In this document: one piece after another, positions 717 to 37,689 of the stretch
How the letters are laid out: each line of letters starts with the position of its first letter
How positions within the stretch are numbered: position 1 is the stretch's first letter
Origin: a virus
IMG/VR virus record: IMGVR_UViG_3300031553_000013
Coordinates: 1 to 37,689 of that record
Length of the DNA stretch: 37,689 nt
Direction: 5' to 3' (one strand)
Translations under genes and position numbers: made by a program
Notes under the pieces: model-generated
What the model was told of the DNA's origin: nothing
Databases searched by the model: none
The model's input: the letters and a program-made list of their open reading frames with translations, nothing else

Positions 717-1034
717 TATCCCAGAAGGGATAAAAAGTCTACCGGCAGAAGCCCAGAAAACCTGGATTGATATTTATAATAATGCCTGGGAACAGTACAA
801 AGATCGGGCAGAAAAAGAAGGTTTGGCTAATGCCACAGCCTGGGCCGGTCTTAAAAAAGCAGGTTGGAAAAAGGATAAAGAGGGTAACTGGGTTAAAACT
901 GAAACACAAGGGAATCTAAACGCTATGGAATTGGCAATATTGGAAGCTTATTCCCAGACTTATGAATTAAAAGATGTTGAGGTATTTGGTATTGGAACAT
1001 GGAAAGGTAATAAAATCACCGGTGAGGATATTGA
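1..1034. repeat. Terminal direct repeat, left copy (about 96% identical to 36656-37689)
   Basis: Every base from 1 to 1034 aligns without gaps to 36656-37689 at a constant offset of 36,655. I counted about 41 substitutions, nearly all in third codon positions, with eight amino-acid changes over both reading frames. This is what two related phage strains would show, not sequencing error. The simplest reading is a circular or circularly permuted phage genome assembled past its own start from a mixed population. Confidence 0.93.
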
Positions 1035-2169
1035 TAATATTGTAAATGGCACTAATGAAATAATTGATAAATTAAAGCCGAGAGTAAAATTAGGCCATAA
1101 TGACAAGCAGGATCTATTAAGAAAAACAGGGCTCCCGGCTGGCGGTTGGATCACTAAATTAAAAAGAGTAGGGGATAAAATTTTAGTTAACATTAAGGAA
1201 GTGCCTAAGGTTTTATATCAATTAATTAAAAATGGAGCATATAAGAGGATATCCAGTGAGATTTTAGCCAATTATACCGAGCCCAGTACTAAAAAGAAAT
1301 ATGCAAAGGTCCTTTCAGCCATAGCTTTTTTAGGTGCTGATCTACCGGCAGTAACCAATTTAAAAGATATTGCTGCCTTATATGATTTTAATGAGGATGC
1401 CAATTTAATTATATATCAAAAAGCAGAAAAATATAATTGTGAATGTATTAAATGTGGTTATAAAATGACCAGTGATAAGCATTGTAATGAAATAAAATGT
1501 CCCGAATGTGGTGGCCAAATGAGAAGGGTTGAGAGGCCTGGACCGGGGCAATCACATATAGAAAAATCCAAAGAAAGGAAGGTATATATCATGCCAAACG
1601 GAATTAAGATCACTGAAGTAGAAGGAAAGAAATTTGTCGCGGTGGAAGATTTTGAGAAACTGGAAAAGGAAAAAGAGACAGTGGACAAAGAAAAAGAAAC
1701 AGCCGAAGGCTTTAAAGAGAAATTTGAAACCGAAGAGAAAAAAGCCAAAGAAGCAGAAGAAAAACTAGGCAAAATCTCTAAGGAAAAAAGAGACTCTGAA
1801 ATTAAAACCTTTATTGATGACCACTGCTCTGATAAAGACATGCGTTTTCTACCTAAACAGAAAGAAGTTTTGATGGCTCTTGTGGAGTCCACTTCTGACG
1901 AAAAGAAAATCAAATTTACGGTAGACGACAAAGAGACAAAACTTTCACAGCGGGAATTACTGGAAAAATTTATCGAACTTCAACCAAATTTCTCTGATTC
2001 CATTTTTGCTGAATTAAGCAAGGGTGAAGAGGAAGAGGAAAAAGGCAAAGATAAATTAACTCCAGAAGAAAAGAAAGTCCAGAAATATATGGCTGAAAAT
2101 AAAGGCGTAAGCTATAGAGACGCTGTCTTAGCTGTTCTGGATTCTACTGAAGAAAAAAAGAAAAAATAA
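694..2169 (+). CDS. ChaB-domain / Mu I-like prohead protease with zinc ribbon and scaffold tail
   Basis: This is a 491-residue head-maturation protein. The start at 694 is chosen because GGAG at 681-684 lies 9 nt upstream, while the ATG at 685 touches the GGAG. Residues 1-70 look like a complete ChaB domain: MPY start, a P-E-G-I-K-S-L-P segment, N-N-A-W-E-Q-Y-K, then A-W-A-G-L-K-K. Residues about 75-235 resemble Mu gpI/phage I-like proteases, with the G-H-N motif, a G-A-Y-K-R-I-S-S-E-I segment and L-G-A-D-L-P-A-V. A four-cysteine zinc ribbon follows (C-x-C-x2-C-G ... C-P-E-C-G). The remainder is a Lys/Glu-rich coiled coil typical of scaffolds. The order protease-scaffold-decoration-capsid supports the role. 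The ChaB domain is unexpected here and its function is unknown to me. Confidence 0.82.
   Translation: MPYKYPSNIPEGIKSLPAEAQKTWIDIYNNAWEQYKDRAEKEGLANATAWAGLKKAGWKKDKEGNWVKTETQGNLNAMELAILEAYSQTYELKDVEVFGIGTWKGNKITGEDIDNIVNGTNEIIDKLKPRVKLGHNDKQDLLRKTGLPAGGWITKLKRVGDKILVNIKEVPKVLYQLIKNGAYKRISSEILANYTEPSTKKKYAKVLSAIAFLGADLPAVTNLKDIAALYDFNEDANLIIYQKAEKYNCECIKCGYKMTSDKHCNEIKCPECGGQMRRVERPGPGQSHIEKSKERKVYIMPNGIKITEVEGKKFVAVEDFEKLEKEKETVDKEKETAEGFKEKFETEEKKAKEAEEKLGKISKEKRDSEIKTFIDDHCSDKDMRFLPKQKEVLMALVESTSDEKKIKFTVDDKETKLSQRELLEKFIELQPNFSDSIFAELSKGEEEEEKGKDKLTPEEKKVQKYMAENKGVSYRDAVLAVLDSTEEKKKK
1591..2169 (+). CDS. Nested in-frame scaffold protein (internal start of the protease gene)
   Basis: An ATG at 1591 inside the protease gene is preceded by a strong Shine-Dalgarno, AAAGGAAGG at 1574-1582, at good spacing. 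It would give a 192-residue protein holding only the coiled-coil scaffold part. Phages such as lambda (C/Nu3) and Mu (I/Z) make scaffold from an in-frame internal start of the protease gene, so separate production is likely. The product begins with a short globular-looking segment, then Glu/Lys coiled coil to about residue 75, and ends in a charged basic tail. This is inferred from the start signal and family precedent. Confidence 0.72.
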   Translation: MPNGIKITEVEGKKFVAVEDFEKLEKEKETVDKEKETAEGFKEKFETEEKKAKEAEEKLGKISKEKRDSEIKTFIDDHCSDKDMRFLPKQKEVLMALVESTSDEKKIKFTVDDKETKLSQRELLEKFIELQPNFSDSIFAELSKGEEEEEKGKDKLTPEEKKVQKYMAENKGVSYRDAVLAVLDSTEEKKKK

Positions 2170-21122: not shown

Positions 21123-21242
21123 TTAAGTGTTTCAAGGTTCTATTTTAGCTATAACTTTACATAAGATATATTACAGGATATAATATTTGATATAACAAAT
21201 GTAAATAAAACCTTGGACACTTAATGGTGTTCGGGGTTTTTT
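21123..21242 (+). promoter_or_regulatory. Attenuator: mutually exclusive hairpins ending in a terminator
   Basis: Segment A (21123-21139) pairs with segment B (21208-21224) over 16 pairs with one bulged T. B also pairs with C (21227-21239) over 13 pairs with a 6-nt loop, followed by six Ts (21237-21242), an intrinsic terminator. A-B and B-C cannot form together, so A works as an antiterminator for transcripts that start upstream. Transcripts starting at the internal promoter lack A and should terminate. Confidence 0.65.
21156..21184 (+). promoter_or_regulatory. Promoter-like sequence inside the attenuator region
   Basis: TTTACA (21156-21161), a 17-bp spacer and TATAAT (21179-21184). Inverted copies TTTACAT (21156-21162) and ATGTAAA (21199-21205) flank it and could be an operator. 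Transcripts starting here would meet the terminator at 21208-21242 within about 50 nt. Confidence 0.6.
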
Positions 21243-21274
21243 ATGTTATATCACTTAGAATCAAAATTAAATAA

Positions 21275-21347
21275 CCAAAATAATCAGACTGGACATTTTA
21301 ACAGGTTCTTCGGTGCTCCTGTTAGTGTCTGGTCTTTTTTGTTTTGG
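21275..21347 (+). terminator. Second strong leader terminator
   Basis: AGACTGGACA (21286-21295) pairs fully with TGTCTGGTCT (21326-21335), followed by a run of Ts. Inside lies a second stem AACAGG/CCTGTT (21300-21305, 21318-21323), and CCAAAA/TTTTGG (21275-21280, 21342-21347) can close the outside. It stands directly after the attenuator and before the structured RNA at 21375. Confidence 0.8.
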
Positions 21348-21374
21348 CTATTTTTATTTTAAGAGAAAAACAAA

Positions 21375-21460
21375 CCAGGCTTCCGCAAGGTTGGGTCAGG
21401 TGTTTTCCCTCAGACCTGAATACTTTGCCACTTGATCCAAGGACCTAAACGGAAGCCTGG
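21375..21460 (+). ncRNA. Structured leader RNA, copy 1 of a two-copy motif
   Basis: P1: CCAGGCTTCCG (21375-21385) with CGGAAGCCTGG (21450-21460). After a CA/AAA internal loop, P2 is AGGTT with GACCT (21388-21392, 21442-21446). A 3-nt AAG bulge (21439-21441) follows, then P3 GGGTC with GATCC (21393-21397, 21434-21438). The apical part contains the 15-nt core GTCAGGTGTTTTCCC (21395-21409), identical in copy 2 at 27448-27539. It ends 5 nt before the GGGGGTG ribosome site of the gene at 21481. No known RNA family was recognised. Confidence 0.8.
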
Positions 21461-21480
21461 TAAAAAGGGGGTGAGAAAAA

Positions 21481-21642
21481 TTGAAAGAAGAAAAGCTAGA
21501 ACAACTAAGAGTAGTTTTTAAACAAATGATAAAAAATTTTTTAAATAGTGATAGGGATGATTTTAATACTGAAGATAATGATATTAAAACTTTAACTAAC
21601 AATATGGTACTTGAAGTAAAAATCCGAATCAATAATAAATAG
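21481..21642 (+). CDS. Small protein downstream of leader RNA 1, unknown
   Basis: A 53-residue acidic helical protein (L-E-Q-L-R-V-V-F-K-Q-M-I-K-N-F-L then an Asp/Asn-rich stretch) starting at TTG 21481 behind GGGGGTG. It is the first gene after an attenuator, a terminator and the structured RNA, so its expression is likely tightly controlled. No family is recognised. Confidence 0.6.
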   Translation: MKEEKLEQLRVVFKQMIKNFLNSDRDDFNTEDNDIKTLTNNMVLEVKIRINNK

Positions 21643-21702
21643 GGGGTGATTTTATATACCAAAATTGGTATGCAAATTAAAAATTTTTAGGAGATATGAA
21701 AG

Positions 21703-22119
21703 ATGAAAATAATGACTAAAAGCAAAGAAATAAAAGAACATATAATAAAAAAATTTGAGGGATTTCCAATAGAAGGAATAATGGAATTTTATGACCATAT
21801 ATTATCATATAATCCAATTAAAAATTATTATTTAGAATATATATGGATACATAAAACTTTTCGGGGAAAGCCAAAAAGGTGGACAAATAGAAAAATATTT
21901 TATGGTTCATTGGGATATCAAACTGAAAAGATACCATATACTGGTGCGGGTGCTGCTGGCTATGATTGTATCGTAGAAAAAGTTTATTTCAATTTATTAT
22001 ATTTCAATATTAACCATAAAAAATCTATACAAAAAAGGGGGTTATATCTACGGGGAATATGTTCTGAAGATAACAGAAGCGGTGGAACTCACACAATATT
22101 TAAAAGATTAAAAATTTAG
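21703..22119 (+). CDS. Hypothetical early protein
   Basis: A 138-residue basic, Tyr/Ile-rich protein (F-E-G-F-P-I-E-G-I-M-E-F-Y then W-I-H-K-T-F-R-G-K-P-K-R-W). A glycine-rich patch T-G-A-G-A-A-G-Y-D lies in the middle. It starts at ATG 21703; the upstream site AGGAG is about 12 nt away. I do not recognise the family, and no catalytic motif stands out. Its AT content is higher than its neighbours (long A/T codons), which may mark recent acquisition. Confidence 0.65.
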   Translation: MKIMTKSKEIKEHIIKKFEGFPIEGIMEFYDHILSYNPIKNYYLEYIWIHKTFRGKPKRWTNRKIFYGSLGYQTEKIPYTGAGAAGYDCIVEKVYFNLLYFNINHKKSIQKRGLYLRGICSEDNRSGGTHTIFKRLKI

Positions 22120-22131
22120 GAGGTATTAGAA

Positions 22132-22686
22132 ATGGTAAGCAAAGAAAAGGATTTTAAGGCTACGGTAAAGGCCAAATTAAGAGAGATTAAAGAATGTAAT
22201 CTTGATATTGCGATTTTAAGAAGGAATCTTGATAATTTTTCCAGCCAGAACTTTATCGAGAGAAATAATAAAAAATATACTATCGAAGATTTAACTAATA
22301 ACATTGAAAAATTAGAGGGTGAACTGGAAAAAGAATTAATCGCTTCAAAAGGAACCAAAATAGATACCCTGGTAGGCTGGGTTAATTTCCGAGATATGCC
22401 GGATAGTTGGACCTACGATATTCCTGCATTAATGGATTTCCTCAAAACCATACCTGAAAAAATTGCTAGGAGATTTATTAAAGTGACTACCACTTTATTG
22501 GAAGGTGAATTAAAGAAGGCCATAATAGCTGACAATCCCGATATATTTGAAAAAAATAAAATTACTGATTTAGGCGCTAAGTTATATTTGATTGGTGAGC
22601 TGGGTGATGAAGATTATCCGGTTGAAGGCGTAGAGATTAAGCGTCAAGATCCAAGATTCCATTATAAAATAAAGTCTAATATTTAA
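22132..22686 (+). CDS. Gam-like host-nuclease inhibitor candidate
   Basis: A 184-residue protein with an N-terminal coiled coil (about 1-70: E-C-N-L-D-I-A-I-L-R-R-N-L-D, then I-E-K-L-E-G-E-L-E-K-E-L). A compact domain follows, opening G-W-V-N-F-R-D-M-P and continuing with an L-M-D-F-L-K-T-I-P-E-K-I-A-R-R-F-I-K helix. The order coiled coil, then G-x-(I/V)-x-(F/W)-R strand, then helix is that of Gam proteins, which bind DNA ends and block host exonucleases. Its neighbours are replication/recombination genes. The similarity is structural in style and weak in sequence, so I hold it only as a candidate. AGGAGG precedes the start. Confidence 0.5.
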   Translation: MVSKEKDFKATVKAKLREIKECNLDIAILRRNLDNFSSQNFIERNNKKYTIEDLTNNIEKLEGELEKELIASKGTKIDTLVGWVNFRDMPDSWTYDIPALMDFLKTIPEKIARRFIKVTTTLLEGELKKAIIADNPDIFEKNKITDLGAKLYLIGELGDEDYPVEGVEIKRQDPRFHYKIKSNI

Positions 22687-22706
22687 TTTAAGGAGGTAAT
22701 TTTTAA

Positions 22707-24218
22707 ATGAATAATGGTACAAGTTTTTTTAAGAAGTTTACAAAAATCAAAGGTGATCATCCAATTAGCAGTATCCGGAGATTAACTTGGAAGGGCAAAA
22801 TTCGGTTGGGGATTCAAGTCCCCACTATAGCGAAGGACAAAAACGGTAAATACAAAAAGGATCAGAACGGTGATTTTATACAGAGGCGGGATAAGTACGG
22901 AGAGTTAGAATTTCACCCGAAAGAAGAACCTTATTTTGTATGCCCTAAAGAAGTTAGAGATATGTTTGGAAAAGAACCCACTGAATTAAAAATAGCTTTT
23001 CCTTTATCCGGTTTGGATCAAAACGGTTTACCGGATATTGGGGGTTTGTTTCCCCAGGCCTATAAATATTATGGTAGTTCCAGGGGGCTCAAATGTATAG
23101 GGGATGGCGAAACTGCAATGAGGGCAAACGAAAAAGGGATTTTTGAAGAAATAGAATGTCCTTGTGATAAGTTTGGCCAAAAGGACGGTTGCAGTAAACG
23201 GGCTAGCCTATTCTTTTTTATACCCGATATATCGATGGGGGGTATATATGTAATTGATTCCGGCTCCTGGAATACTATGGTAGACGTTCAAAGTGGTATT
23301 TATCTAGCTTTGGAATTACTCAAAGATCCTATAACTGACGAATACAATAGTATTACCATGCTTCCCTTTAAGTTAAGGCGAATGCAAAAAGAAACCCAGC
23401 ATGAGGGTAGAAAAGATAAACATTGGCCCTTGACTTGTGAATTGGATTTACCTATAGAGGATATTAAAAAAATAAGGACAGGCAAGACCTTATTCCTGGA
23501 ACAAAAAAAGGTATATCAAATACCGGAAAGAGAGGAAGATATCAGCCCAAAATATGATAGTAAGGAAGGTGGGGCAGTAATCATTCCAAAGAATGAAGAA
23601 GAAGCAAAAAATTTAGCAAAAAAACAATCAAAAGAATTCAAAAAAGAACTTAAGGAAACTGAATCAAAAATAGCAGAGAAAAAAGAAAAATTAGCCAAAG
23701 ATATTGAGGAATCAAAGGACCGGGAAACCCAGCTAAAGAAGGATCGGGAAGAAGGAGAGGGCAAACTCAAATCTTATCAAGAAGCGAAAGCAATACATAA
23801 AGAAGAAGTTAAAGAAGAAACTAAGATCTTACTGGCTATATCGAAACAAGCCCAAAAGGCTGGGATTAATAACTTTGAAAAGCTGGTTAAATTTGCCGTA
23901 GATATGGGAATATTTAAAACCATGCTTAGCGAACGCTTGGCCAGGAAGGTTTTAACTTCTAACAAAGATAAATATAATCAGCTTATGAAAGCCCTGGAAC
24001 CATCTACTGATGATGACAAAGAAAAATTAGATAAAATGTTTGAAAGATTTAATGATGCAGGGTTAGATACCTGGAAAGAGATTGCCTGGTTTGCATGTAA
24101 AGTCGATGTAAAAGAACCGGGAAGTCCAATTGAGGAACTAAAAAGAACCTTACTTAATAATCCGGAAGCGGTAGAAAAAATAATAGAGATGGCGAAAAGC
24201 GAAGAAGAACAGGAGTAA
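22707..24218 (+). CDS. Gp3-like / 'hydrolase or metal-binding' phage protein with coiled-coil tail
   Basis: A 503-residue protein. Residues 1-275 match a phage family variously named Gp3-like, recombination directionality factor or hydrolase/metal-binding protein: R-L-G-I-Q-V-P near the start, F-P-Q-A-Y-K-Y-Y, L-K-C-I-G-D-G-E-T-A, then C-P-C-D...C, I-D-S-G-S-W-N-T-M-V-D-V-Q-S-G and L-P-F-K-L-R-R. The cysteines are probable zinc ligands. Residues about 290-375 are a long Glu/Lys coiled coil, and the last 125 residues form a helical unit not usual in the family. If it is a directionality factor, its recombinase is missing from this genome. A general DNA-replication role is equally possible. AGGAGG lies upstream. 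Confidence 0.7.
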   Translation: MNNGTSFFKKFTKIKGDHPISSIRRLTWKGKIRLGIQVPTIAKDKNGKYKKDQNGDFIQRRDKYGELEFHPKEEPYFVCPKEVRDMFGKEPTELKIAFPLSGLDQNGLPDIGGLFPQAYKYYGSSRGLKCIGDGETAMRANEKGIFEEIECPCDKFGQKDGCSKRASLFFFIPDISMGGIYVIDSGSWNTMVDVQSGIYLALELLKDPITDEYNSITMLPFKLRRMQKETQHEGRKDKHWPLTCELDLPIEDIKKIRTGKTLFLEQKKVYQIPEREEDISPKYDSKEGGAVIIPKNEEEAKNLAKKQSKEFKKELKETESKIAEKKEKLAKDIEESKDRETQLKKDREEGEGKLKSYQEAKAIHKEEVKEETKILLAISKQAQKAGINNFEKLVKFAVDMGIFKTMLSERLARKVLTSNKDKYNQLMKALEPSTDDDKEKLDKMFERFNDAGLDTWKEIAWFACKVDVKEPGSPIEELKRTLLNNPEAVEKIIEMAKSEEEQE

Positions 24219-24236
24219 AGATCTATTAATAAAATA

Positions 24237-24344
24237 ATTGCCTATCCTGTGACGTTCCATATTAGCGTCAGGAAAGGGTCTAAGGACAAGGTAACGGTGT
24301 GGAGTTGGTTGCAGGGTAGGGGTAGCTCTGCCAGGATAGGCAAT
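24237..24344 (+). ncRNA. Structured leader RNA with 13-bp closing stem (second type)
   Basis: ATTGCCTATCCTG (24237-24249) pairs perfectly with CAGGATAGGCAAT (24332-24344). Inside are hairpins TGACG/CGTCA (24250-24254 and 24266-24270) and GCAGGG/CTCTGC (24311-24316 and 24326-24331), with a G-rich middle that may fold further. It therefore looks like a three- or four-way junction. The closing stem ends 6 nt before GGAG at 24351 of the gene at 24364. It shares no sequence with the RNA pair at 21375 and 27448. No family recognised. Confidence 0.72.
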
Positions 24345-24363
24345 AAAAAAGGAGTATAAAATA

Positions 24364-24609
24364 ATGGAAATAGTAGGTAAAGAATTCAAAAAGAAACTGG
24401 TAAATTCTAAGATCGAGGTTACACATTTTGTCAAAGTAAAATGCTCAATGAAAACTGAATTAACAAAACTTATTTGGGGCAAAAGAAAATGTTTTATATG
24501 TGGCGGTAAATTCAAAGATGGAGACAACCCGGTGGCGGCCATTACCAAAAAAGGAATGAATAAAATAATATGCGGGAAATGTTATTCAAAAATTATAGGG
24601 AACAAATAA
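24364..24609 (+). CDS. Small zinc-finger protein
   Basis: An 81-residue basic protein with a C-x2-C ... C-x2-C finger (C-F-I-C-G-G-K-F near residue 45, then C-G-K-C near 70), so probably one zinc ribbon or treble clef. The N-terminal 40 residues are basic and Lys-rich. It follows the structured leader RNA and may bind nucleic acid. No named family is recognised. Confidence 0.7.
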   Translation: MEIVGKEFKKKLVNSKIEVTHFVKVKCSMKTELTKLIWGKRKCFICGGKFKDGDNPVAAITKKGMNKIICGKCYSKIIGNK

Positions 24610-24610
24610 A

Positions 24611-24757
24611 ATGAAAAAAATCAGATATGTGGATATAAGATTCGGCAAACCATTCAATAAAAGTTTTGGCACGCTTCATATCAGAGGAGTATATTTCAAA
24701 TATTTCATATTTAATCTTTACTTTTTTAATGTAATAATTTCTATTTGGTTTAAATAA
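24611..24757 (+). CDS. Small hydrophobic/aromatic protein
   Basis: A 48-residue protein beginning 1 nt after the previous stop: K-K-I-R-Y-V-D-I-R-F-G, then a C-terminal hydrophobic stretch Y-F-K-Y-F-I-F-N-L-Y-F-F-N-V-I-I. It may be a single-span membrane peptide. There is no clear ribosome site except GGGAACAAA in the end of the previous gene, so it may be translated by coupling. Confidence 0.45.
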   Translation: MKKIRYVDIRFGKPFNKSFGTLHIRGVYFKYFIFNLYFFNVIISIWFK

Positions 24758-24783
24758 AAATAAATAAATTCGGTGGATAAAAA

Positions 24784-24966
24784 ATGAAAAAATACAGATT
24801 ACAAGAAGGGGTTGCATGGATATGTTTCAAGTGTGGCAAGAAGATCCTTAATTTAGACGATATGGTTTTTTATGATCATAGACTTTATCACAAAAAATGT
24901 GCTTTAACTTTACTGGAAAAATTAAAGAAAAAAGTAATCGAAAAAATAACTGGGGTTAAAAGATGA
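24784..24966 (+). CDS. Small zinc-finger protein, LIM-like spacing
   Basis: A 60-residue protein with C-F-K-C-G-K-K, then H-R-L-Y-H-K-K-C: the spacing C-x2-C ... H-x3-H-x2-C resembles half a LIM or PARP-type finger. A basic helix ends it (L-L-E-K-L-K-K-K-V-I-E-K). It overlaps the next small gene by 4 nt. A nucleic-acid or protein-binding role is plausible but unproven. Confidence 0.65.
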   Translation: MKKYRLQEGVAWICFKCGKKILNLDDMVFYDHRLYHKKCALTLLEKLKKKVIEKITGVKR

Positions 24967-25091
24967 AAATGCCAATTATTATGTTTCGTAAAACTAAAGA
25001 AGAATTAAGAAAATTAGATAAAGAGAATGACATTAAACTTTTAAGGCTATTGAAATATCTAAGAAAAAGGAAGGGTAAAAATGAAAAATAA
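24963..25091 (+). CDS. Very small basic protein
   Basis: A 42-residue Lys/Arg/Leu-rich helical peptide (T-K-E-E-L-R-K-L-D-K-E-N then L-L-R-L-L-K-Y-L-R-K-R-K). It starts in an ATGA overlap with the previous gene and overlaps the start of the next by 11 nt. Coding is supported by the tight overlaps, not by homology. Confidence 0.5.
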   Translation: MKMPIIMFRKTKEELRKLDKENDIKLLRLLKYLRKRKGKNEK

Positions 25092-25815
25092 AATAGGTTG
25101 GTGTAACCTCACCTGGAATCCGGTGTGGGGCTGTCTTAATAATTGTGAATATTGTTATGCGAGGAAAATGGCAAAGAGATTTGCCAGAAGAATGGTAGAA
25201 ATTGAATATACTCCTAACGATAATCCTTATCTTTATTCTGACTCGGATAGGAAAAAAGCTTTTGATAAATTAAGTAAGGAATTTAAAAAATTTATTCCTA
25301 CATTTCTACATAAGCAATTTTATAAGGAATTCCCCAAAAAACCTCAACGAATATTCGTGGGATCGATGAGCGAAATTTATTATTGGGAAGATGAATGGTT
25401 AAAAAAAGTACTGGAAAAAATAAAATTATATCCCCAGCATATCTTTCAATTTTTGACTAGATATCCGGAGGTTTACGATAGATATATTTTCCCAAAAAAC
25501 TGCTGGCTGGGTGTAACCATAACCAGAGAAAAAGATTTTGAGAGGGGAATCCCTTATCTATTTATTACAAGCTGTAATATAACCTTTGTATCGGTTGAGC
25601 CCATACTTGAATATATTAACCCCGGGCCATTTTCAAATGCAAATATTGACTGGGTAATCCTGGGGGCAGAGACCGGGAACAGAAAAGGGAAGATCATGCC
25701 AAAAAGAGAGTGGATAGAGAATATAGTAAATTATTGTAAATGGAATAATATCCCGGTTTATCTAAAAGATAGTCTAAAGGAAATTTATCCGGAAGAGATA
25801 AAGATGTTTCCTTGA
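25081..25815 (+). CDS. Phage Gp37/Gp68-like (DUF5131) radical-SAM-type protein
   Basis: A 244-residue protein. The N-terminus T-W-N-P-V-W-G-C-L-N-N-C-E-Y-C-Y-A gives a C-x3-C-x2-C cluster (C18, C22, C25) as in radical SAM enzymes. Later motifs F-V-G-S-M-S-E, F-Q-F-L-T-R-Y-P, W-L-G-V-T, F-V-S-V-E-P and V-I-L-G-A-E-T-G are those of the Gp37/Gp68 (DUF5131) family common in phages and elements. The reaction is not known; an iron-sulfur cluster and SAM chemistry are expected. This is one of three such proteins in this genome. It sits just upstream of the replication initiator region. Confidence 0.9.
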   Translation: MKNKIGWCNLTWNPVWGCLNNCEYCYARKMAKRFARRMVEIEYTPNDNPYLYSDSDRKKAFDKLSKEFKKFIPTFLHKQFYKEFPKKPQRIFVGSMSEIYYWEDEWLKKVLEKIKLYPQHIFQFLTRYPEVYDRYIFPKNCWLGVTITREKDFERGIPYLFITSCNITFVSVEPILEYINPGPFSNANIDWVILGAETGNRKGKIMPKREWIENIVNYCKWNNIPVYLKDSLKEIYPEEIKMFP

Positions 25816-25874
25816 AAATAAAACTATAAATAAACTAAAAAAATACTATAAAAAAAGAAGGGAGAACTATAAAT

Positions 25875-26081
25875 ATGACCTATAAAGAATTATTTGCGGT
25901 AACAGACCTATTGAATGATATCAGGGAAGGCCGGGAAATTAAAATTAACAATAATACTAGGGTAGATTTGGCAGAAGTGGAGAATTATTTTAAGAATTTA
26001 ATTGCTGATATTAATAAGAAAAAATTAAAAAGCAAAGAACCAATTATGTATTACAAGTTGGCCATTGAGGTTAATAAATAA
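25875..26081 (+). CDS. Small protein, unknown
   Basis: A 68-residue helical protein (E-L-F-A-V-T-D-L-L-N-D-I-R-E-G-R, then an E-N-Y-F-K-N-L-I-A-D-I helix). It has AGGGAG upstream of ATG 25875. It ends just before the hairpin region at 26113. No family recognised. Confidence 0.62.
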   Translation: MTYKELFAVTDLLNDIREGREIKINNNTRVDLAEVENYFKNLIADINKKKLKSKEPIMYYKLAIEVNK

Positions 26082-26112
26082 AGGGGGTGGTGTCTTTGAT
26101 TGTGGTTTAATG

Positions 26113-26174
26113 TCTCTTCAGGTAAGAGAGTGCTTAAAGTGGCGGGGGCAGGTTTAGGCTATTGGCCTGCCCCC
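26113..26174 (+). promoter_or_regulatory. Two hairpins in the leader of the replication gene
   Basis: TCTCTT/AAGAGA (26113-26118, 26124-26129) and a very stable GGGGGCAGG/CCTGCCCCC (26144-26152, 26166-26174). No T-run follows the second, so it is not a simple terminator. It stands 40 nt before the replication gene and may control its expression or be part of the origin. A stretch of Gs this long is rare in this AT-rich genome. Confidence 0.6.
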
Positions 26175-26214
26175 CGGACAAAAATAATAGAAAAAAAGGA
26201 AATAAGATTGACGA

Positions 26215-27021
26215 ATGATCCCAAAAGATTCTACTCCGATCAAAAATAAAATATTGATAGAAATACTTGCGAAGGGTTTATTAAGCAAAGATGAGATGAG
26301 GATAATATTTTATATTATCCGTTGGTCCTGGGGTTTTAATGGAATAGGAAGAAGGCAGGATTGGACTAAGGAAGTAAATATAAAAAAAATTGCAAAAGAT
26401 ATAAACATGGATAGATCTTATTGTAACCGAATTATATTAAGAATGCTCAAAGAAAATAAAATAAAAATAAAAAATGGCAGTTACCAATTTAATGAACATT
26501 TTGAGGGGTGGGTAAAAATTACCCAGTGGGTAAAAGTTACCCACAAAAAGGGTAAAAATTACCCTAAAAGTGGGTGGAAATTACCCACAAAAAGGGTAAA
26601 AATTACCCAGTTAGGCACACCTAACAATCAAGGAGATAGTATAAAAAATAAGGATGTCAGGGGGGGCGAACATACGTCTAAAGAAACTCTTAAAGATAAT
26701 AAAGAAACTCTTAAAGGGAAAAAAAGTGATTTACGCTTTGAAATTATAAGATACCTGAATAAAATTACCGGGGCACATTACAAGCCCAATACCCCGGATA
26801 CGGTTAAGCACATAAAGGCCAGGCTAAAGGAAGGCTTTACTTTAGAGGATTTTAAATATGTCGTTGATGTTAAATGTGCTGAATGGAAAGGTAAATTTAA
26901 TAAAGAGGGCAAAAATATGGAAGATTTTTTAAGACCGATAACCTTGTTCGGTACAAAATTTGAGAGTTACCTTAATCAGCCTAAACCCGATCCTTTGCAA
27001 AAATATTATAAAAAGGAATAG
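26215..27021 (+). CDS. Replication initiator (lambda O / Phage_rep_O type) with Phg_2220_C-like end
   Basis: A 268-residue origin-binding protein. Residues 1-100 form a winged-helix replication domain of the Phage_rep_O kind (E-M-R-I-I-F-Y-I-I-R-W-S-W-G, then D-R-S-Y-C-N-R-I-I). Residues about 100-145 are a repeated linker encoded by the iterons. Residues about 180-268 match the conserved phage C-terminal domain: I-R-Y-L-N-K-I-T-G, I-K-A-R-L-K-E-G-F-T-L-E-D-F, R-P-I-T-L-F-G-T-K-F-E-S-Y-L-N. No helicase or loader is encoded, so the protein must recruit host helicase. AGGAAATAAG before 26215 acts as ribosome site. Confidence 0.87.
   Translation: MIPKDSTPIKNKILIEILAKGLLSKDEMRIIFYIIRWSWGFNGIGRRQDWTKEVNIKKIAKDINMDRSYCNRIILRMLKENKIKIKNGSYQFNEHFEGWVKITQWVKVTHKKGKNYPKSGWKLPTKRVKITQLGTPNNQGDSIKNKDVRGGEHTSKETLKDNKETLKGKKSDLRFEIIRYLNKITGAHYKPNTPDTVKHIKARLKEGFTLEDFKYVVDVKCAEWKGKFNKEGKNMEDFLRPITLFGTKFESYLNQPKPDPLQKYYKKE
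26510..26608. repeat. Iteron cluster, probable origin of replication
   Basis: Five copies of GGGTAAAAATTACCC or close variants start at 26510, 26528, 26550, 26572 and 26594. Each has inverted GGGTAA/TTACCC arms (copy 4 has GGGTGG). Spacing is 18, 22, 22 and 22 bp, which places the last four on the same face of the DNA helix. They lie inside the initiator gene, as in lambda ori inside gene O. The flanks are AT-rich. Confidence 0.85.
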
Positions 27022-27025
27022 AAAA

Positions 27026-27442
27026 ATGAGAAATATAAATGAAGGATCGATGCAAATTAAAAATGCTCACTTGGGGAATGTGATGCTAAAAAAATTAACA
27101 AGGGGAGAAGTTACCCTAGAAGAGTATCTCATAAAATGTGCTTACTGGGGAATGAAAACCTTAGACGATATGTATTATAAATCTTTACCTAGCAAACCCT
27201 TATGTGTCTTTGAATACGAGCAGTTACCTTATTCTAAAAGAAAGAAATTAACCCAGGAATATTTTACAGATCATCCTGGAATATCAAGATATTATGAAGA
27301 GAAGAACAAAGTTATCAGAGAAAATAAGGAGAGTCTATTGAGATTAAAATGTTTAAAAAAAGATATACCGGAGAGTGATCTAAAAAGTCACGAGAAAATA
27401 GATAAGGCAATAATGGATTTTAAAATAAAAATGGGGGGCTAA
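27026..27442 (+). CDS. Hypothetical protein after the replication gene
   Basis: A 138-residue basic protein read from ATG 27026, which has AAGGAAT upstream and lies 4 nt after the initiator stop. Segments: L-T-R-G-E-V-T-L-E-E-Y-L-I-K-C-A-Y-W-G-M-K-T-L, then a Lys/Glu-rich helical tail. No motif suggests a reaction. Being coupled to the initiator, it could be a helicase-loader or replisome partner, but this is only context. Confidence 0.6.
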   Translation: MRNINEGSMQIKNAHLGNVMLKKLTRGEVTLEEYLIKCAYWGMKTLDDMYYKSLPSKPLCVFEYEQLPYSKRKKLTQEYFTDHPGISRYYEEKNKVIRENKESLLRLKCLKKDIPESDLKSHEKIDKAIMDFKIKMGG

Positions 27443-27447
27443 TAAAA

Positions 27448-27539
27448 TTAAAAGGCCCTTCTGCAAGGTAGAGTCAGGTGTTTTCCCAAAACCCGGACTT
27501 TGGCCCCTGCTCAAGTACCTAAACAGAAGGGCCTTTTAA
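27448..27539 (+). ncRNA. Structured leader RNA, copy 2 of the two-copy motif
   Basis: P1 is a 16-bp helix: TTAAAAGGCCCTTCTG (27448-27463) with CAGAAGGGCCTTTTAA (27524-27539). The CA/AAA loop, P2 AGGTA/TACCT (27466-27470, 27516-27520), AAG bulge (27513-27515) and P3 GAGT/GCTC (27471-27474, 27509-27512) sit exactly as in copy 1. The core GTCAGGTGTTTTCCC (27473-27487) is identical. Helix sequences differ from copy 1 but stay paired. It ends 5 nt before AGGAG of the gene at 27559. Confidence 0.82.
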
Positions 27540-27558: not shown

Positions 27559-27924
27559 ATGAGTATAAATCTTACTAATATAAGAATCAAAGCTGAAAAG
27601 GAAAAAATAATCAAGATGTATAAAGATAATATCCCAATATTGGATATTGCCAAAAAGTATGGAGTAGTCTCAACTTCTCTTTGGCGACATTTAAAAAAGT
27701 GGGGTGTGCCAATAAAACGCAAACCACGTGAGCCACACCATTATAGGGATAGAAAAATTAAGAGAGTTAAGCGAATTTTTAGCCTGGAACTGTTGGCTAA
27801 AATGAAGGAGAATACTAGGATAAACGATAAGCATATAAAATTTTATGGAATAGTTGAAACCGAAAAAGATAAGTTTATGGTCCGGAATATATTAAAAAAA
27901 TCGAAGGCGGTTGCAAATGAATAA
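27559..27924 (+). CDS. HTH DNA-binding protein downstream of leader RNA 2
   Basis: A 121-residue basic protein. Residues about 15-50 form a resolvase/homeodomain-like helix-turn-helix (K-E-K-I-I-K-M-Y, then I-L-D-I-A-K-K-Y-G-V-V-S-T-S-L-W-R-H-L-K-K-W-G). A basic linker (K-R-K-P-R-E-P-H-H-Y-R) and a helical C-terminus follow. It is probably a regulator. AAAGGAG precedes the start and its mRNA leader carries the structured RNA. The gene overlaps the next by 8 nt. Confidence 0.75.
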   Translation: MSINLTNIRIKAEKEKIIKMYKDNIPILDIAKKYGVVSTSLWRHLKKWGVPIKRKPREPHHYRDRKIKRVKRIFSLELLAKMKENTRINDKHIKFYGIVETEKDKFMVRNILKKSKAVANE

Positions 27925-28169: not shown

Positions 28170-28334
28170 ATGGAAAGTACTGAGCAAATGGTAAAAGAAT
28201 TATTAGAATTGTTTTTATACCAGGACACCGTAAATAGAATGGACTCTAAAGATAAGCTGATAAAGGTTTACCGGGTAAATTCTAATATCGTTAGAGTGGA
28301 TATAAAAACAACGAAGGGGGGAGTTAGGCCATGA
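28170..28334 (+). CDS. Small protein, unknown
   Basis: A 54-residue acidic-to-neutral protein (E-S-T-E-Q-M-V-K-E-L-L-E-L-F-L, then V-Y-R-V-N-S-N-I-V-R-V-D-I). AAAGGAG lies 7-8 nt upstream of ATG 28170, and its stop overlaps the next ATG. Helix followed by two strands. No family recognised, but the start signals are good. Confidence 0.62.
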   Translation: MESTEQMVKELLELFLYQDTVNRMDSKDKLIKVYRVNSNIVRVDIKTTKGGVRP

Positions 28335-28561
28335 AGGCCAAGGTTAATATTAAATCTAATTTTTCTAAAAGTATCGTGGAAAGGGTATTTGATGAATCTG
28401 TATTTATGCTACAGACTAATGAGACCTTGAGAGTTACTGCATTAAGATTTGGTGTTTCTATATCTACCGTTTGGCGGGATATGAGAAAAAGGCTATTAAT
28501 TATAAATCCAGACTATTATAAAAAAATGGATGAGCTTATCAATTCTCATAAAAGAAGGTGA
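28331..28561 (+). CDS. SpoIIID-like HTH regulator
   Basis: A 76-residue protein close in pattern to SpoIIID, the sporulation regulator of Bacillus and Clostridium. Residues about 25-65 carry T-N-E-T-L-R-V-T-A-L-R-F-G-V-S-I-S-T-V-W, then R-L-L-I-I-N-P-D-Y and a basic H-K-R-R end. SpoIIID binds DNA as a monomer through its HTH and basic C-terminus, both seen here. The phage copy may hijack or mimic host regulation, or act only on phage promoters. A GGGGGG ribosome site lies in the previous gene. Confidence 0.78.
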   Translation: MKAKVNIKSNFSKSIVERVFDESVFMLQTNETLRVTALRFGVSISTVWRDMRKRLLIINPDYYKKMDELINSHKRR

Positions 28562-35181: not shown

Positions 35182-37371
35182 ATGGATATAAAAGATATAT
35201 TTCAAAATACCAAAGATACCATAAAGAAATTGCTTAAACCGGAAATGGGCGAGATATCCCACTCTGGAACTGATATCTGGGGTATTGGTGATCTTCCTGT
35301 CTACAATCCCGATGACTTGGTAGAAAAAAAAGGATTGGAAATATATAGAAAAATGCAAAGGCGGGACGGCCAAATTAAGGCTGTCTTTATGTTAAAGAAG
35401 CATGCCCGATTATCTACCCCCTGGAGTATCAGGCCGGAAGATGAGGATGATCAGGAAGCAGTAAAACAGGCTGATTTTATTAAGCATTGTTTTTCAGAAA
35501 TGAAAGGGAACGTAAATAATACCCTGCTTAAAATATGGAATGCCATGAGGGATGGTTTTTCTGTGGCTGAAATAAATTATAAGATCCTTTCTACCGGAGA
35601 ATTTAAAGGGATGATCGGTATTGATAATATCAAGGTCCGGAAAGCTGCAAATTATATGTTTAAATGTGATGAGCATGGCAATATTGAAGAAAAAGGCTTA
35701 ATTGAGGGTTATAATAAACCCTTGCCTGTAAATAAATTTATTCTTTTTGCCTACAACCCCAATGATGACGATGCAGACAGCTTATATGGTGAGTCTGATT
35801 TTAGGGCAGCCTACCGGTATTATTTCTCTAATGATATCGTTCAAAGATTCTGGAATATCTTTTTAGAAAAGTTTGGCCAGCCCACCGTAATAGGTCGTTA
35901 TGAAACCGGAACTACCAAAGAAAAACAGGACGCATATTTAGATATATTAAAGACCATTCAAACTGATACCGCGATAGTAATGCCAAAAGGGTTAGAAGCT
36001 GAACTTTTAGAGGCTCAAAGAAGAGGATCAGCCGGTTATAAGGCAGCCTTTGATACTAATAATAGCATGATTGCCCGGGCTTTACTGGTGGGTACTCTTT
36101 TAATGGATACCGGGGAAAAGGGCTCCTGGGCCTTATCTAAAACTCATTTTGATATTTTTATTTACATACTTGATTATTTAGGAGGTGAAACTGAAGATAC
36201 TATAGTCCGGGAACAGATCATAAAGCGGTTAATAGATTTTAATTTTACCCAACCCAAATATCCCTATTTTAAATTTGAATCACTTATAAAAGATGACCAG
36301 GAAGCAAAGGCTAAGATTGCCAAGATGTTAGTTGATGGTGGCCTGATTAATCCGGAAGAGGAGTGGGTCCGGGAATTCCTTAAGATCCCAGCCAAAGAAG
36401 AAGGGATAATTTTACCTGAACCCAAACCTAAAGGCGGGGGCTTTGCAGAAGATTATCAGGCCGGGCTAAAAAGGCAGACTAATCAATATGAAAAAAAATG
36501 TAATTTTACCCGGATAATAAAAAATCTTGATGAATGGGAAGCAAAGGCTAAAGAGGATCTTGTAAAAATTATAACTAAGCAAAAAGAATCCCTTAAAAAA
36601 GATATTTTAAAAAGAAAGATTATTGAAACTAATTCGGCTTCACAAATTGAAAAGATTCAGCTATCTTATGTCGGAGAATTAAAAACCAAAATACAGGAAT
36701 ATCTAAGAGATTTATGGCAATATGGCCGGGAAGAGGTAAAAAGCGAACTGGGTAAGATGAAATTTGTCGATATAGTCCCCGGTTTACCACCTAAAAAAGC
36801 CCTGCAATATTTGAATAATAAATCTTTTTGGATTGCTGGGGTGATAAGAGATAGTGTCTTAAAAGAAGCAAGGGCAATCTTATATAACGGTTTAAAAGGC
36901 GGGGCCACTACCCCGGAGATAATGTTTCAATTGGATGGATTTTTTAAAGAGTATATCGGGACTACCGCAATAGAGATAAAAACCGGGAGAGAATTAACTC
37001 CCTGGCACCTTGAAAATGTAGTAAGAACCAATTTTAGCGATGCCTATAATGAGGGACGCTGGGCTATGATGAACGATCCTGATGTAGGGGATTTTGTACC
37101 GGCAGTAGCCTATTCCTCTGTTATGGATGATCGGACTACCGAGATTTGTGAACGGTTGGATGGCCAGGTATTTGAAAAAGGCGATCCTGATTTAGCCAGG
37201 GTAAAACCACCTAATCATTATGAGTGCAGGGGAACTCTGGTCCCGGTAACTAAATATGAAAAATTTACTCCTATATCTAAAGAAAGGAAAGCGGGGATTA
37301 TGGCCATAAAGCCTAAAAATTTTGTAAATTTAGAAGGAGATGAGTTATATGCCTTACAAGTATCCGAGTGA
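35182..37371 (+). CDS. Portal (DUF935, Mu gp29-like) fused to MuF head protein (Mu gp30-like)
   Basis: A 729-residue fusion. Residues 1-430 are a DUF935-type portal: K-M-Q-R-R-D-G-Q-I-K-A-V, then S-L-Y-G-E-S-D-F-R-A, F-G-Q-P-T-V-I-G-R-Y, and the E-A-Q-R-R-G-S-A-G-Y segment. The portal is the dodecameric DNA gate at one capsid vertex. Residues about 440-729 are MuF: a basic coiled linker, then the V-P-G-L-P-P-K-K, T-T-E-I-C-E-R-L-D-G and H-Y-E-C-R motifs. Mu encodes these as two genes; here one frame carries both. The last 23 bases overlap the protease start. AAGGGG upstream of ATG 35182. Confidence 0.92.
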   Translation: MDIKDIFQNTKDTIKKLLKPEMGEISHSGTDIWGIGDLPVYNPDDLVEKKGLEIYRKMQRRDGQIKAVFMLKKHARLSTPWSIRPEDEDDQEAVKQADFIKHCFSEMKGNVNNTLLKIWNAMRDGFSVAEINYKILSTGEFKGMIGIDNIKVRKAANYMFKCDEHGNIEEKGLIEGYNKPLPVNKFILFAYNPNDDDADSLYGESDFRAAYRYYFSNDIVQRFWNIFLEKFGQPTVIGRYETGTTKEKQDAYLDILKTIQTDTAIVMPKGLEAELLEAQRRGSAGYKAAFDTNNSMIARALLVGTLLMDTGEKGSWALSKTHFDIFIYILDYLGGETEDTIVREQIIKRLIDFNFTQPKYPYFKFESLIKDDQEAKAKIAKMLVDGGLINPEEEWVREFLKIPAKEEGIILPEPKPKGGGFAEDYQAGLKRQTNQYEKKCNFTRIIKNLDEWEAKAKEDLVKIITKQKESLKKDILKRKIIETNSASQIEKIQLSYVGELKTKIQEYLRDLWQYGREEVKSELGKMKFVDIVPGLPPKKALQYLNNKSFWIAGVIRDSVLKEARAILYNGLKGGATTPEIMFQLDGFFKEYIGTTAIEIKTGRELTPWHLENVVRTNFSDAYNEGRWAMMNDPDVGDFVPAVAYSSVMDDRTTEICERLDGQVFEKGDPDLARVKPPNHYECRGTLVPVTKYEKFTPISKERKAGIMAIKPKNFVNLEGDELYALQVSE

Positions 37372-37689
37372 TATCCCGGAAGGGATAAAAGGTTTACCGG
37401 CGGAAGCCCAGAAAACCTGGATTGATATTTTTAATAATGCCTGGGAACAGTACAAAGATCGGGCAGAAAGAGAAGGTTTGGCTAATGCCACAGCCTGGGC
37501 CGGTCTTAAAAAAGCAGGTTGGAAAAAAGATAAAGAGGGTAACTGGATTAAAACTGAAACACAGGGGAATCTAAACGCTATGGAATTGGCAATATTGGAA
37601 GCTTATTCCCAAACTTACGAATTAAAAGATGTCGAGGTATTTGGTATTGGAACATGGAAAGGTAATAAAATCACCGGTGAGGATATTGA
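36656..37689. repeat. Terminal direct repeat, right copy
   Basis: Collinear with bases 1-1034, about 41 substitutions, no gaps. It carries the end of the portal-MuF gene and the start of the ChaB-protease gene. Confidence 0.93.
37349..37689 (+). CDS. ChaB-domain protease, 5' part (second copy, cut by window end)
   Basis: The frame from ATG 37349 runs off the window after about 113 residues. It equals residues 1-113 of the gene at 694-2169 except for five changes (N/D, S/G, Y/F, K/R, V/I), all in the ChaB part. GGAG at 37336-37339 gives the same start choice. It is the same gene seen again past the circle junction and not a second protease. Confidence 0.9.
   Translation, partial: MPYKYPSDIPEGIKGLPAEAQKTWIDIFNNAWEQYKDRAEREGLANATAWAGLKKAGWKKDKEGNWIKTETQGNLNAMELAILEAYSQTYELKDVEVFGIGTWKGNKITGEDI

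Follow-up and report, generated by a model that had tools for sequence, protein, structure and literature searches.

The locus raises the question of what a structured RNA, occurring twice in one phage genome, does in the transcript that carries it. The window, i.e. the whole stretch of DNA analysed (37,689 nt, an IMG/VR virus record), had been described in a first-pass annotation as holding two elements of the same layout, both ending 5 nt before a Shine-Dalgarno sequence. They were taken for leader RNAs selected for shape, with an invariant 15-nt core and without a known family. Three functions were offered (ligand sensor, protein-binding leader or processing signal) and a covariance-model search was suggested. 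The two copies and their parts are as follows.

21374..21461, + strand: copy A, 72.6 bits with the covariance model
21374-21385/21450-21461: helix P1 of copy A
21386-21387/21447-21449: CA/AAA internal loop of copy A
21388-21392/21442-21446: helix P2 of copy A
From 21393: helix P3 of copy A, with a variable apex
21439-21441: AAG bulge of copy A
27448..27539, + strand: copy B, 91.1 bits with the covariance model
27448-27463/27524-27539: helix P1 of copy B
27464-27465/27521-27523: CA/AAA internal loop of copy B
27466-27470/27516-27520: helix P2 of copy B, which also has P3 and a P4 hairpin, CCAAA...UUUGG
27513-27515: AAG bulge of copy B

Both elements proved to be present with the layout claimed for them. 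P1, the CA/AAA loop, a P2 of 5 bp, the AAG bulge in the 3' strand and P3 are common to the two copies, and the fifth pair of P2 changes from U-G in copy A to A-U in copy B. The folding energies of -42.4 kcal/mol (copy A) and -42.2 kcal/mol (copy B) correspond to z scores of -5.32 and -5.91 against dinucleotide shuffles, none of which was equally stable. Folded in a 371-nt or 261-nt context, both copies stay closed domains, with P1 pair probabilities in the longer transcripts of mostly 0.98-1.0 (0.75-0.97 for the outermost pairs of copy B). The Shine-Dalgarno sequence lies 4-5 nt 3' of the element in both cases, in agreement with the spacing first described, and is mostly unpaired when the longer transcripts are folded.

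Searches with the Gp3-like protein (22707-24218) and with the replication protein (26215-27021) brought in related phages, in which diverged copies of the element are present; pattern scans supplied additional copies. Homologues occur in about 20 related IMG/VR phage records, and 27 distinct copies, each of them a single irregular hairpin, were aligned (alignment A3). The covariance-model search (model R1) returned homologues with paired helices, giving strong matches in 21 of the 26 related records (E<=1) and in three further records. The absence of a known family was borne out by Rfam 15: the window had no match at the gathering cut-off and only poor matches, to unrelated families, at E up to 10, and eight homologous loci had no family match. 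The element represents a new family of structured RNA, presumably cis-acting and about 86-90 nt long, in related Mu-portal-type phages of uncultured sediment bacteria. Searches in other collections gave the following results: (i) 36 pattern matches in GTDB genomes, none with P1 and none with a good covariance-model score; (ii) no new homologue among the matches listed in a further viral pattern scan; (iii) no close relatives by blastn against INPHARED phages and PLSDB plasmids; (iv) no match in a host search with the portal protein, which covered samples of three phyla and had no positive control. The element behaves as a self-contained module that a phage either has or lacks at each of two fixed slots, and each slot keeps to its own class (A-type P1 at the A slot, B-type P1 at the B slot); class and slot counts are based on contigs that are often fragments.

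The helices are clearly kept by selection on RNA shape, a claim that now draws on covariation in 27 copies instead of two. In an alignment of 20 sequences made without structure (A2), 91.4% of the cells of the 28 proposed pairs are standard, and 18 of these pairs have changes in both partners. Covariation scored 0.494, compared with 0.263 for shuffled and at most 0.214 for slid pairings. The 27-copy alignment, which was fitted to the covariance model and hence leans towards its structure, gives 92.4% standard pairs, 18 of 28 changing on both sides, and a score of 0.493 (0.259 shuffled, at most 0.213 slid). These scores are to be read with a shuffle control that leaves relatedness in, the split between class A and class B being the source of many double changes. 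The pairs of P3 vary inside the classes too, and the fifth pair of P2 takes five standard forms (GC, UG, UA, GU, AU). RNAalifold recovered P1, P2 and P3 from the 27-copy alignment. Since G-U cells (61) exceed A-C cells (17), the selected molecule is the + strand RNA; a hairpin acting at the DNA level is disfavoured by the same excess. All copies have one orientation. A U run after P1 is absent in most of them, and a minus-strand terminator was rejected for want of a consistent U run.

The most conserved part of the family is not the one first proposed. The apical 15-mer is indeed identical in copies A and B, with no further exact match within the window, but it diverges freely in other relatives: of the 32 exact matches in IMG/VR, true homologues account for only four contigs, and a pair of these bears copy B itself. 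The apex is the most variable part of the element and is replaced in the relative L259. Common recognition of the apex, or gene conversion, between the A and B copies of one genome was considered and rejected; in a permutation test on six A/B pairs, p was 0.14 with the entire apex and 0.31 when only the first 16 nt were used. The conserved core is G-CA-AGGU / ACCU-AAA-C, that is the internal loop and P2, with an A-rich bulge. Invariant nucleotides clustered in a single internal loop, while the outer helices and the apex vary, give the usual look of a small ribozyme, and a self-cleaving RNA of an undescribed class might cut the mRNA just before the Shine-Dalgarno sequence. Rfam searches at E up to 10 gave no score for any ribozyme family, and neither a pseudoknot nor a multi-branch core was seen, which leaves this explanation very improbable.

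The genomic surroundings of the two copies differ. At the scale of the whole window, positions 1-1034 recur at 36656-37689 with 41 differences in 1034 nt (96.0% identity), a repeat that may reflect circular permutation of the genome or the joining of strain variants. Around the elements the following features were located.

21156..21184, + strand: predicted sigma-70-type promoter TTTACA-17-TATAAT, 11 of 12 consensus matches, upstream of copy A
21207..21246, + strand: terminator-like hairpin 1, 15 pairs followed by a U run, between the predicted promoter and copy A
21269..21356, + strand: nested terminator-like structure, the outer hairpin (with U5 after it) enclosing an inner one (with U6 after it)
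21481..21642, + strand: 53-aa ORF with a TTG start, after copy A
27559..27924, + strand: helix-turn-helix (HTH) protein gene directly after copy B

The promoter-like sequence is similar in the relatives L063, L273 and L150, and hairpin 1 is also found in L063 and L122/L225. The nested structure, with apical ACAGGTT..GCGGT..CCTGT, stands directly 5' of the A slot in 10 relatives. Class A copies thus lie 3' of this structure and 5' of the 53-aa ORF or other small genes; the ORF has homologues of 39-47% identity in eight relatives and had no match in Pfam and PHROGs searches. Class B copies are placed between the replication-gene region and, usually, the HTH gene (PHROG 1303, DNA binding, E 6.3e-7; PHROG 323, E 5.8e-5), homologues of which follow most of them. 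Direct repeats about 22 nt long (AGTGGGTAAAAGTTACCCAC...) occur at 26525-26608 within the replication gene (26215-27021) and may mark an origin. At 28331-28561, past the HTH gene, a short phage protein matches the sporulation regulator SpoIIID (PF12116, 44.9 bits, above cut-off). Copy B starts at most 8 nt past a stop codon, within a gene series and before the next Shine-Dalgarno sequence. In several class B copies the upstream stop is likewise no more than 10 nt away, often 0-8 nt, which places the element in a gene-to-gene junction. The term leader RNA therefore suits copy A, 3' of the predicted promoter and terminator region, but not copy B, which follows a stop codon.

The position of copy A also bears on the possibility that the element is an antiterminator RNA like put of phage HK022, which would load on RNA polymerase for read-through of terminators in a long operon. 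Like putL and putR, the two copies are related and share one phage, and copy A, itself 3' of the predicted promoter and terminators, is followed in the window by about 16 kb of + strand genes. However, those terminators are upstream of copy A rather than downstream, few + strand terminator-like sites follow, copy B stands about 6 kb into the genes, and put consists of two stem-loops whereas the element is one irregular hairpin. An antiterminator is accordingly judged quite unlikely.

Downstream of the element, a Shine-Dalgarno-led start codon was found in 23 of 27 copies (180 nt scanned), 15-44 nt past P1 in 22 of these 23 and only 2 nt past it in L223; in L222 the nearest start is 168 nt downstream. 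The proteins encoded there, compared by eye and only in part by tblastn, have many different N-terminal types. An operator or ligand-sensing leader, whose loop and P2 would bind either a protein (of phage or host) or a small molecule and control translation of the next gene, would explain why sequence conservation is confined to the internal loop, P2 and bulge while the helices vary, as specific recognition predicts. The place of the element just before the Shine-Dalgarno sequence and the frequent HTH gene after class B copies agree with it. On the other side, the downstream genes differ, the element folds as a closed domain that leaves the Shine-Dalgarno sequence mostly free, so that simple occlusion is unlikely, and an alternative terminator or anti-Shine-Dalgarno structure was not seen. 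An aptamer coupled to a terminator or Shine-Dalgarno switch, as in a riboswitch, was not found, the element being closed on itself. A candidate switch of P2 against CAAGGU/ACUUUG was discarded, its complementarity being no higher than in shuffles (p 0.16-0.34, five copies scored). Of the functions first offered, the ligand sensor has no visible expression platform, and a protein-binding leader is conceivable; binding to a protein or ligand is, taken together, rather improbable. It is retained, as is the ribozyme, mainly because the loop sequence is invariant.

The third function offered, a processing signal, fits the anatomy best. By analogy with the RNase III sites of phage T7, with which it has no known sequence match, the element may be a cis-acting mRNA processing or stability signal, and this is the reading we tentatively prefer, at a probability of roughly 0.4. 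The element would act on the very polycistronic phage mRNA that carries it. The conserved internal loop, flanked by two helical arms of about one turn each, would give a host endonuclease (RNase III being the first candidate) a place to dock and cut, or the element might instead block exonucleases. Either a cut or a block would leave the downstream gene with a 5' end that is defined and protected, a few bases ahead of the Shine-Dalgarno sequence of that gene. The dimensions agree with a T7-type RNase III site, namely a P1 of 12-16 bp and about 13 bp of P2 and P3 around the CA/AAA loop, at gene junctions. Several points speak against processing: copy B of L233 has lost the 5' arm of P1, L222 has no close start codon, the element has no sequence link to known processing sites of any kind, and the invariance of the loop and P2 goes beyond the known needs of RNase III.

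The slots give further evidence. Two relatives (L063 and L066) have a cleanly empty A slot, and two others (L053 and L058) a cleanly empty B slot; other slots are used in L259, L266 and L223, and copy B of L225 is diverged, a second decayed copy beside that of L233. In some relatives a different RNA takes or adjoins the A slot, as listed.

L272 16676-16798 (-) and L056 about 1012-1134 (+): cloverleaf-like RNA of 123 nt in the A slot, with a 13-bp closing stem and the T-arm GCCGG-TTCGAAT-CCGGC
L233 9893-10018 (-), and in L223 upstream of its copy: related-looking closed-stem RNA of about 90-126 nt, adjoining the A element directly upstream, with ends CCTGCC(C/T)TGTGGC...CTGTCAGGGCAGG

ARAGORN did not call the cloverleaf-like RNA of L272 and L056 as a tRNA, and no Rfam match was found near the closed-stem RNA of L233. 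A T-arm-like sequence beside copy A of L222 was rejected as the same module, its fold being weak (-21.5 kcal/mol) and without closure.

Empty and filled slots may instead point to a dispensable insertion. A MITE- or REP-like hairpin repeat, possibly selfish and kept only since it is nearly harmless at gene junctions, would account for the clean presence or absence at two slots, the decayed copies, the use of other slots and the AAGG-like repeats at the element edges. Yet there are only one or two copies per phage, the slot-specific classes argue for long residence over active transposition, and the strong covariation, invariant core and single orientation need selection on RNA. We regard such a repeat, too, as improbable. 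A general cut or protection role, as proposed in the processing reading, would account for the varied downstream genes, the loss of the element and a tRNA-like RNA taking or sharing its slot. The junction position, the single orientation, the free Shine-Dalgarno sequence, the varied genes and the loss or replacement fit such a general site better than a gene-specific switch. A tRNA-like RNA is a typical substrate of RNase P and RNase Z. In a bolder and unlikely extension, the hairpin family and the cloverleaf would be exchangeable modules at one pre-Shine-Dalgarno junction, acting as alternative makers of mRNA ends, the hairpin either cutting itself or having in its internal loop an undescribed, sequence-specific motif by which a host nuclease recognises it.

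Phage biology gains a well-supported structured RNA family, and the 27 aligned copies, the covariance model and the naturally empty sites open its function to simple comparative tests. Should the processing reading be true, phages of uncultured sediment bacteria would, as T7 does, place sites for cutting or protecting RNA between their cistrons, here with a conserved loop motif, and the place of the hairpin would be one where tRNA-like modules can serve as well.

Among known RNAs, the bacterial Y RNA that binds Ro60 is a stem with an asymmetric loop, a short conserved helix and a bulge. The element resembles it in this plan and in the tRNA-like modules nearby in some relatives; in contrast, it has no Rfam Y RNA match, and a TROVE/Ro60 gene is absent from 20 related phage records. 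The putL and putR sites of HK022 are about 70 nt long and similar in sequence, putR lying about 270 nt from its start (PMC9378689). The element recalls these sites in that one phage has two similar copies, copy A being early in the transcript; unlike the tandem stem-loops of put, the element is a single hairpin, with one copy inside the operon and the terminators upstream. The R1.1 RNase III site of T7 is a 60-nt hairpin with an asymmetric internal loop of 4/5 nt between genes 1.0 and 1.1 (PMC6121014), said to drive maturation and protection of T7 mRNA (PMC8708148). By analogy, R1.1 is the closest functional model of the element. Although the element differs in an invariant loop and P2 across relatives, in a larger apex, in having no known sequence match and in a cleavage that is only predicted here, both are hairpins whose helical arms flank an asymmetric internal loop, and both stand between genes in an early phage transcript.
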